From Gammaproteobacteria bacterium (GTDB lineage: Bacteria > Pseudomonadota > Gammaproteobacteria > HK1): a stretch of 60,895 bases of DNA. The notes below the pieces were generated by a model. It was not told the origin of the DNA. It made no database searches and saw only the letters and a program-made list of their open reading frames with translations. Shown here in pieces: positions 60,404-60,895 of the stretch. The first letter of the stretch is position 1. The number at the start of each line of letters is the position of its first letter. The position numbers were made by a program, and so were the translations under genes. The stretch is from the NCBI GenBank assembly GCA_021773795.1, contig JAJFJT010000018.1, positions 1-60,895 on the forward strand, written 5' to 3'.

Positions 60404-60507
60404 GTAGCCTGGATGAAACGAAGTGAAATCCGGGGTGGGGTCCATTGCCGTGCCAACCCACACCGCTCCTATCTTCCCGGATTCCGCTCACGTTGCATCC
60501 AGGCTAC
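60404..60507. repeat. Inverted-repeat intergenic element (GTAGCCTGGATG type)
   Basis: Two ~32-bp arms (60404-60435 and 60476-60507) are inverted copies: each begins GTAGCCTGGATG from its outer end and runs to an ATCCGGG-like inner end, with about 26 of 32 positions matching. A 40-base spacer lies between. It resembles short palindromic repeats scattered in gammaproteobacterial intergenic regions. The flanking bases 60287-60403 and 60508-60560 show nothing clear. Confidence 0.75.
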
Positions 60508-60560: not shown

Positions 60561-60587
60561 TAAAAAAACGGCCCTTTCGGACCGTTT
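60561..60587 (-). terminator. Second copy of the tRNA-Gln terminator
   Basis: The same hairpin as at 60722-60746 (AACGGTCC-GAAA-GGGCCGTT on the minus strand), here followed by seven T. It belongs to a 52-bp exact direct repeat (60564-60615 and 60723-60774) that includes the last 19 bases of tRNA-Gln. Confidence 0.85.
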
Positions 60588-60596
60588 CTATTAGCA

Positions 60597-60722
60597 TGGC
60601 TGGGGGACAAGGATTACTCCGCACATCCTGTGCTCCACCCCTGCGGGGCCCGCCTTTGGCGGTTCAAAATTGCTCCCGGCAATTTTGTCGAACCCGGTTC
60701 TCACCCTTGCCCCCCAGCCAAT
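60597..60722. repeat. Hairpin-chain insert between duplicated tRNA-Gln 3' ends
   Basis: 60597-60615 repeats the last 19 bases of tRNA-Gln; 60705-60720 carries a near-perfect inverted copy of its final 16 bases. Between them are four consecutive hairpins: GCAC-ATCCT-GTGC (60621-60633), CCCC-TGC-GGGG (60638-60648), CCGCC-TTT-GGCGG (60650-60662) and AAAATTGC-TCCCG-GCAATTTT (60666-60686). On the minus strand the first and last loops contain GGA. No protein is encoded. It looks like an insertion or duplication event at the tRNA 3' end. Confidence 0.7.
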
Positions 60723-60746
60723 AAAAACGGCCCTTTCGGACCGTTT
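60722..60746 (-). terminator. Intrinsic terminator of tRNA-Gln (and perhaps rpsI)
   Basis: On the minus strand AACGGTCC-GAAA-GGGCCGTT forms an 8-bp stem with a GNRA-type loop and is followed by a T-run. It begins about ten bases after the CCA end of tRNA-Gln. Confidence 0.88.
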
Positions 60747-60755
60747 CTATTAGCA

Positions 60756-60829
60756 TGGCTGGGGGACAAGGATTCGAACCTTGGTTGGCGGAGTCAGAGT
60801 CCGCAGTCCTACCACTAGACGATCCCCCA
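60756..60829 (-). tRNA. tRNA-Gln (CTG anticodon)
   Basis: A 74-nt cloverleaf on the minus strand: acceptor TGGGGGA/TCCCCCA with the U1-A72 pair typical of tRNA-Gln, anticodon arm GCGGA-CTCTGAC-TCCGC (anticodon CTG), T-loop GGTTCGAATCC and encoded CCA. It begins only nine bases after the rpsI stop codon, so the two may share a transcript. Confidence 0.95.
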
Positions 60830-60838
60830 AATTGCGGT

Positions 60839-60895
60839 TTAGCGCTTGGAGAACTGTGGCCGCTTGCGCGCCTTGTGTAGCCCCACCTTCTTACG
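60839..60895 (-). CDS. rpsI: 30S ribosomal protein S9, C-terminal fragment (cut by window edge)
   Basis: The last 18 codons read RKKVGLHKARKRPQFSKR and stop, the invariant C-terminus of S9, which reaches the ribosomal P site. The rest of the gene is outside the window. A tRNA-Gln gene follows almost directly. Confidence 0.95.
   Translation of the reverse strand, partial: RKKVGLHKARKRPQFSKR

Follow-up and report, generated by a model that had tools for sequence, protein, structure and literature searches.

Transfer RNA-linked repeats (TLR/RtT) have been described since 1978. At the tyrT locus of Escherichia coli, three such units follow tyrV, each with the order spacer, anti-tail, GGTTCGA, hairpins, GAGTA, ATCC and tail (GGTTCGG in one of the three), and the number of annotated RtT units under the tyrT match is 1, 2 or 3 (20 E. 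coli rows of 4682 records). As reported in the consulted part of PMC8144298, E. coli K-12 contains 22 TLRs at ten loci, whose hallmark is a 3′ stretch of 18–19 bp identical to the end of the tRNA or rRNA gene upstream; in that part of the source they are repeats without known function.

The feature analysed here lies near the end of a window of 60,895 nucleotides (contig JAJFJT010000018.1 of the gammaproteobacterial assembly GCA_021773795.1, taken as a whole), and is a tRNA-linked repeat of this known kind in a host where the anatomy had to reveal it. As for the E. coli repeats, it is positioned directly downstream of its parent gene on the same strand, and 19 nt are identical to the 3′ end of that gene. 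The unit is 159 bp long compared with about 178 in tyrT, shares the borders GGTTCGAC..GAGTAATCC and a chain of hairpins with the tyrT units, and has the GGTTCGA–hairpin chain–GAGTAATCC architecture of the tyrT repeat. The two-terminator layout resembles that of E. coli RrA, RrB and RrF, as far as these are described in the consulted part of PMC8144298. The Rfam model RF00391 (RtT) spans positions 60725–60597 of the minus strand end to end, but at 28.9 bits the match falls below the curated cut-off of 45, in which the window unit differs from the E. coli repeats; 45.6 bits are attained in a genome of another family (G030). The Rfam model favours tails of the form ATCC...CCA because it contains a Tyr-like tail.

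The second difference concerns interpretation. The unit is a T-loop (TTCGA^ATCC) that is split by a 73-nt core of four hairpins, and no such interpretation of TLRs was found in the literature searched, including the consulted parts of PMC8144298, PMC4986893 and PMC2965389. Our overall reading, to which we assign a probability of roughly 0.7, is that of a TLR/RtT with its T-loop split by a separable core that would itself be a miniature mobile element.

Anatomy of the locus

On the minus strand, rpsI is followed by tRNA-Gln(CTG) and a terminator-like hairpin; beyond an insert of 107 bp, the tRNA tail and the same hairpin appear a second time (Table 1). The two copies of the repeat are identical over 52 bp and start 159 bp apart, and each consists of the last 19 nt of tRNA-Gln and the 33 nt downstream; the chance expectation of 52-bp repeats in 60 kb is about 1e-22. 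The insert begins with an inverted copy of the tRNA tip, which matches positions 60597–60612 over 16 nt with 94% identity, and continues with a short AACC/GGTT hairpin ending in GGTTCGA, the core, and finally ATCC with the remainder of the tail.

Table 1. Features of the tRNA-Gln locus in window coordinates
Feature	Position	Strand	Basis or remark
rpsI 3′ end, leaves the window	60839..60895	-	whole frame in overlapping contig C30 (L002:85-477 minus)
tRNA-Gln(CTG), intact	60756..60829	-	Rfam RF00005, 61.3 bits
52-bp repeat, gene-proximal copy: last 19 nt of tRNA-Gln and terminator-like hairpin (60723-60746)	60723..60774	-	exact repeat; fold
Anti-tail, inverted tRNA-tip copy pairing with the distal tail copy	60705..60720	-	inverted-repeat match, 94%; fold
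GGTTCGA, 5′ half of T-arm, loop split at this point	60688..60694	-	sequence
Core: 73 nt, four hairpins (P3–P6), GGA in two apical loops	60615..60687	-	model R1, 70.9 bits (by construction, the window core being in the model seed)
Last 18 nt of tRNA-Gln, distal copy: 3′ half of split T-arm and acceptor strand	60597..60614	-	sequence
52-bp repeat, distal copy with second terminator-like hairpin (60564-60587)	60564..60615	-	exact repeat

The initial annotation had reported the exact duplication with a terminator and the last 19 nt of tRNA-Gln in each copy, four back-to-back hairpins and an inverted tRNA tip in the 107 bp between, and the absence of an integrase or cargo gene, and all of these observations hold. 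The four hairpins constitute the core, to which RNA folding of the 107 bp adds the short AACC/GGUU hairpin as a fifth. The terminators are assigned as terminator-like hairpins from the predicted fold, and were not flagged by a consensus terminator scan of the window. The insert contains no integrase-sized or cargo frame, and is overlapped only by frames of 62–76 aa. For 206 nt of the minus strand, the fold stability corresponds to a z of -8.0 relative to shuffled sequences, none of 200 shuffles being as good.

Genomes are denoted G000 for the window's own genome, G001 and G002 for two of the same genus, and G006 for one of the same family. The same layout is present in G001 (L034), which makes an assembly artefact unlikely. 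Compared with the full-length split tRNA copies found elsewhere, the window copy is a truncated form that comprises the anti-tail and the T-arm. Within G000, and likewise within G001, the 52-bp copies match each other exactly; between the genomes they differ, both copies carrying the same changes, a pattern suggestive of homogenisation or re-duplication more than of a recent target-site duplication. Judging from these sequences, recombination between units would be the simplest cause of both the tail identity and the varying unit number; acting between the 52-bp repeats, it would keep the two tails identical and alter the copy number.

The last 141 bases of the window (60755–60895) are identical to C30:1–141, and C30 starts one base past the 3′ end of tRNA-Gln. 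The contig break at this end may reflect population variation there or in rpsI. Elsewhere in the window, a REP-like inverted repeat, GTAGCCTGGATGAAACG / CGTTGCATCCAGGCTAC, is located at 60404–60507.

Related units and the split T-loop

Matches to RF00391 (E <= 1e-3) occur in at least 65 of 369 class genomes, with at least 23 above the cut-off; the survey gives a lower bound, with up to eight candidates scored per genome under stricter filters, and missed the copy in the window's own genome. Among the 125 matches examined (127 were listed, two of them without locus sequence), 101 have a tRNA or tmRNA gene no more than 1200 nt upstream on the same strand, these parent genes being Ser (47), Gln (33), Tyr (10), Arg (6), Glu (3), Val (1) and tmRNA (1). 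The last 18 nt are exactly those of the parent gene in 74 of the 101, and deviate by at most two mismatches in 84, compared with 0 and 1, respectively, of 6756 pairings in a cross-isotype control. The earlier suggestion that a minimal repeat accompanies tRNA 3′ ends is borne out by copies at the tRNA genes of relatives throughout the class. The remaining 24 matches, which have no upstream gene, lie at contig edges or in split tRNA copies, apart from a few.

Pattern scans, in which the pattern ends at ATCC, gave 149 matches in 122 stretches among the matches listed, 113 with a tRNA or tmRNA gene within 1500 nt upstream and 36 without; again among the matches listed, tails are exact in 68 of the 113 at the best of five offsets. 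These scans are no census, and comprise at least 120 stretches in class genomes and two from viral contigs. Of 30 tRNA-Gln loci listed, that of the window among them, three have a direct copy of the tail after the gene: those of G000 and G001, and that of G030 from another family. The initial annotation had proposed a comparison with the empty site downstream of tRNA-Gln; no pair of filled and empty sites was found for the window copy itself, its orthologue being filled in G001 and decayed in G002.

Two further observations concern the parent genes. One RtT unit (L122, G064:C182:1578–1716) lies downstream of tmRNA and repeats its last 18 nt. The RtT matches at tRNA-Ser(GCT) are often near csrA on the same contig (G027, G061, G103, G137, G148 and G348, among others).

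In 116 of the 125 class matches, an exact GTTCGA precedes the hairpins, and the ATCC of the tail follows them; the two flanks form a single T-arm, interrupted within its loop. The nine matches without an exact GTTCGA at the required place were excluded, which leaves a core set of 116, of which 104 are distinct, free of N and at least 60 nt long. In certain genomes, it is an otherwise complete tRNA copy that is split. In Photorhabdus caribbeanensis (L258), two intact tRNA-Lys genes are followed by seven copies that are each split by a 64-nt core at TTCGA^ATCC, with a truncated eighth, and in G137 three split tRNA-Gln copies are located upstream of one intact tRNA-Gln. When the flanks were joined by script, a tRNA call spanning the junction was obtained in six rows of the RtT match set (three from L159, and one without isotype) and in 10 of 97 tested pattern matches (six from L258). 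ARAGORN annotates six of the split copies in L258 as tRNAs, and tRNA annotation therefore calls for caution where core-split copies are present. Insertion of a separable element into the T-loop would explain why each TLR repeats exactly the last 18–19 nt of its own tRNA.

The predicted stems of the core are supported by covariation, with double changes in 11 of 15 predicted pairs in an alignment of 21 cores (A2). A first alignment of 73 cores (A1, MAFFT) was set aside, since its stems were misaligned and RNAalifold returned 7 pairs compared with 15 from A2. When stem partners are swapped between the 104 distinct cores, pairing falls to 0.49–0.63, the pairing of each core with its own partner being 1.00 by construction.

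On average, an anti-tail fits the tail of its own tRNA more closely than it does other tails (mean score 9.2 vs 6.2, 77 units, p 9e-11), which can be due either to selection on the helix or to template switching. This fit, together with the duplicated and homogenised tails and terminators, would suit a plain tandem duplication of the tRNA 3′ end in which the inverted arm stems from template switching and the hairpins from drift. However, the same core architecture is encountered at unrelated tRNAs, at tmRNA and at non-tRNA sites, and a core that recurs in this way did not arise afresh by drift each time; we consider a plain duplication very improbable.

The core as a separable unit

Contexts outside the T-loop were identified with a core-only model (R1, 21 sequences including that of the window; L301–L334 are outside the R1 search), and were read by eye for 60 hand-picked matches out of 128 and 90 displayed. 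Read in this way, cores are present in the D-loops of tRNA-Ser copies (L397, L110, L141 and L253) and in the anticodon loops of tRNA-Ser(CGA) copies (L395 in G035 and L179 in G314). Chance or decay may explain the contexts at L184, L231, L232 and L250, and the core ends given by the model are a few bases off at L179, L264 and L132.

Cores are also found inside other cores. In G002 (L035), a second complete core is placed between TTTGGA and ACAATTTTG in the first hairpin (P3 loop) of the tRNA-Gln unit that is orthologous to that of the window, and is detected separately by R1 (L035:1723–1792, 49.6 bits). G001, a sister species, provides the empty site, where the sequence is TTTGGAACAATTTTG. This junction derives from direct reading of the sequences, since the insert was not placed cleanly by an automatic global alignment of L034 and L035. 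A similar nested core is present in a tRNA-Arg unit of G001.

A different setting is found in G006, which has at least 34 R1 core matches; of 20 stretches with such matches, most align as a dispersed repeat with ends like AGAAGCTGTTTTAAAA. The flanks of this repeat are present without a core in at least 43 places, 36 of these 43 being uninterrupted across the junction, which reads GGCGA^AGAACC when empty and GGCGA-core-ACAACC when filled; these counts are lower bounds, with 40 of 269 flank candidates scored and up to 128 matches in the R1 search. There is no tRNA in the 20 G006 stretches (0.7–2.1 kb, some ended by contig edges). Copies far from tRNA genes without flanking duplication had at first been taken as grounds for abandoning a repeat that targets tRNA ends; such copies do exist in part, and widen the reading rather than sink it. 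Filled and empty sites of core size, as defined for a miniature mobile element, are thus observed for relatives of the window core at the nested site of G002 and G001 and in the G006 repeat. The filled copies in G006 could represent one insertion carried along by the host repeat, or the empty ones could have arisen by precise loss.

Tyrosine-integrase elements cross over in the T-loop and regenerate the tRNA end. The initial annotation likened the locus to such an insertion, and with the tails as attL and attR and the core as an att arm, it could be the scar or minimal form of an integrase element at the tRNA 3′ end, a proposal with which the exact direct repeats in the window agree. This picture is only half right. 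Cores occupy full-length tRNA copies, D- and anticodon loops, other cores and an unrelated repeat; what separates is not the 159-bp unit as a whole but its 73-nt core, placed in the T-loop, and elsewhere the core recurs without a tail or att repeat. The lack of an integrase-sized or cargo frame in the insert also speaks against an integrase element, as do the viral contigs, where the pattern scan gave two stretches, both RtT-like without an upstream tRNA, and the TLR region L116 of G002, which has no match in the phage database. Altogether, we find an integrase origin improbable, and carriage by phages was rejected on the latter two results. No transposase or integrase tied to the core was identified.

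The core occurs in three kinds of tRNA loop (T, D and anticodon), within other cores, and in a dispersed repeat that is interrupted in some places and uninterrupted in others, and so acts like a non-coding element that is separable and probably mobile. Its flanks suggest a short target motif. In the non-T-loop contexts outside G006, GA is found on the 5′ side in 22 of 30 and A on the 3′ side in 20 of 30 (p 1e-20 for GA against 1/16, some of the contexts being related), whereas GA precedes the core in just 10 of 18 distinct flanks in G006. Hairpin loops as a general target were rejected, as the enrichment is not significant over 30 contexts (p 0.14) or for those that are neither tRNA nor nested (p 0.45). 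Both sets of 30 contexts are hand-picked and overlapping rather than samples, and in the GA set repeated left flanks were dropped and related ones kept.

Within-genome likeness of cores bears on the question of movement. Mean identity is higher between cores at different tRNAs of one genome (0.687 over 70 pairs) than between cores of different genomes that have the same tail (0.644 over 891 pairs; p 5e-5, the pairs not being independent). Closely alike cores at different tRNAs are found in G031 (Gln/Val, 95%) and G278 (Ser-copy/Arg-copy, 94%), and the Gln core of G001 is more similar to an Arg core of G002 (92%) than the orthologous Gln cores of G000 and G001 are to each other (85%). In addition, the chimera L262 combines the 5′ part of a tRNA-Gln with a core and a tail of the Ser type. 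Likeness of this kind could result from gene conversion instead of transposition; nested cores and filled and empty copies of a repeat are not readily made by gene conversion.

If the core is a miniature non-coding mobile element, we infer that it would move as DNA with GA^A as its entry site, T-loops of tRNAs being the commonest location, and that such an event would have given rise to the window copy. The core would persist in the T-loop because an intact tRNA copy remains, and mobilisation might, as a guess, follow a single-strand DNA route of the Y1/RAYT type. More tentatively, the RtT/TLR core may constitute an unrecognised class of miniature mobile elements that have no gene, measure some 60–85 nt and share a conserved fold of four hairpins. 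Structured RNA genes would be their preferred targets, with entry at GA^A into T-, D- and anticodon loops and into the hairpin loops of the element itself, and a single-stranded DNA or an RNA might serve as the intermediate. The usual destination of such an element would be the interior of a tRNA gene. Origin and mobility of TLRs would become testable in E. coli, where the number of tyrT units varies among the strains listed.

REP/BIME sequences with RAYT (Y1) transposases and miniatures derived from IS200/IS605 are short, geneless, dispersed hairpin DNAs that insert by a short motif with no evident target duplication. The core is similar in these respects, and differs in its four hairpins and its own conserved borders. 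Mobile hairpin elements of organelles and Rickettsia (double-hairpin elements, GC clusters and RPE) are geneless, tens of nucleotides long, and inserted at scattered positions. The core is comparable to these in size, hairpins and lack of a gene, whereas hosts, sequences and targets differ. BIME-associated elements in Enterobacteria are described as resembling rtT in the consulted part of PMC2965389. As for MITEs, the core is a small non-coding dispersed repeat, and in G006 rides inside one, but neither a pair of terminal inverted repeats nor a clear target duplication was seen for the core.

Several other sequences in G000 touch on the core. At G000:C4:110689–110767 (L385), a decayed tRNA-Ser(CGA) copy that is split by a core lies 60 nt upstream of the intact tRNA-Ser(CGA), as it does in G002 (L390). 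The core at G000:C29:41079–41149 (L386) is opposite in strand to a nearby tRNA-Phe, with comparable placements in G024 (L394) and G030 (L400). Downstream of tRNA-Arg(ACG) on contig C24 (L084), there is an apparent decayed second TLR, recognisable by an antisense T-arm, by GAGTTCGAC and by a tail copy that deviates at 3 positions. The last hairpin of the window core has a counterpart in a separate dispersed repeat (e.g., L009, L011, L012, L014 and L017), the common hairpin being GCACAGGATGTGC or one very like it. The 15-mer CCGCACATCCTGTGC is found in 27 places (<=2 mismatches) compared with 2 for a reversed control, and was rejected as a marker of element copies, since about ten of the places belong to another dispersed repeat and others are single places.

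GGA loops and a possible RNA function

GGA occurs in an apical loop in 52 of the 104 distinct cores, compared with TCC in 1 of 104, and two or more GGA hairpins are present in 37 cores, compared with 0 of 104 on the reverse complement. With two such hairpins, the window core has the sequence and fold features (GGA in at least two apical hairpins) by which CsrA-binding sRNAs are recognised, and csrA is present in its genome. These features would suit a functional sRNA gene that is under selection and inherited vertically, in which case the core would be an RNA fold that might serve as a CsrA/RsmA sponge tied to transcription of the tRNA, and its mobility an illusion created by gene conversion. 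In the consulted part of PMC8144298, the rRNA-linked RrA, RrB and RrF of E. coli are transcribed by read-through, processed, and bound by Hfq and CsrA (CsrA in vitro), with RrB binding CsrA via a GGA motif. Likewise, RtT RNAs give Northern signals in Actinobacillus pleuropneumoniae, one of them being reported as conserved over most Pasteurellaceae (PMC4986893, in the part consulted), which a functional RNA fits better than a bare mobile element. Nevertheless, csrA is present in 36 of the 41 genomes with GGA loops and in 19 of the 21 without (p = 1; 62 of 66 genomes, those with a scored core), and the CsrA-binding score is below 0.01 for 19 E. coli TLRs in tRNA operons according to the same part of PMC8144298. 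Nested cores, cores in D- and anticodon loops, and cores in an unrelated repeat are also hard to square with vertically inherited sRNA genes, and we therefore regard an sRNA gene as an unlikely account of the family.

Given a mobile core, E. coli TLRs would be T-loop insertions that are tolerated thanks to a remaining intact copy of the tRNA, some of them having been recruited as sRNAs, and an RNA of the RrB type would be a by-product or a later-acquired sRNA. A CsrA sponge was rejected as the explanation of the family, as the GGA loops are striking but independent of the presence of csrA. Binding of CsrA by the window copy is possible, but would not be the reason for the family.
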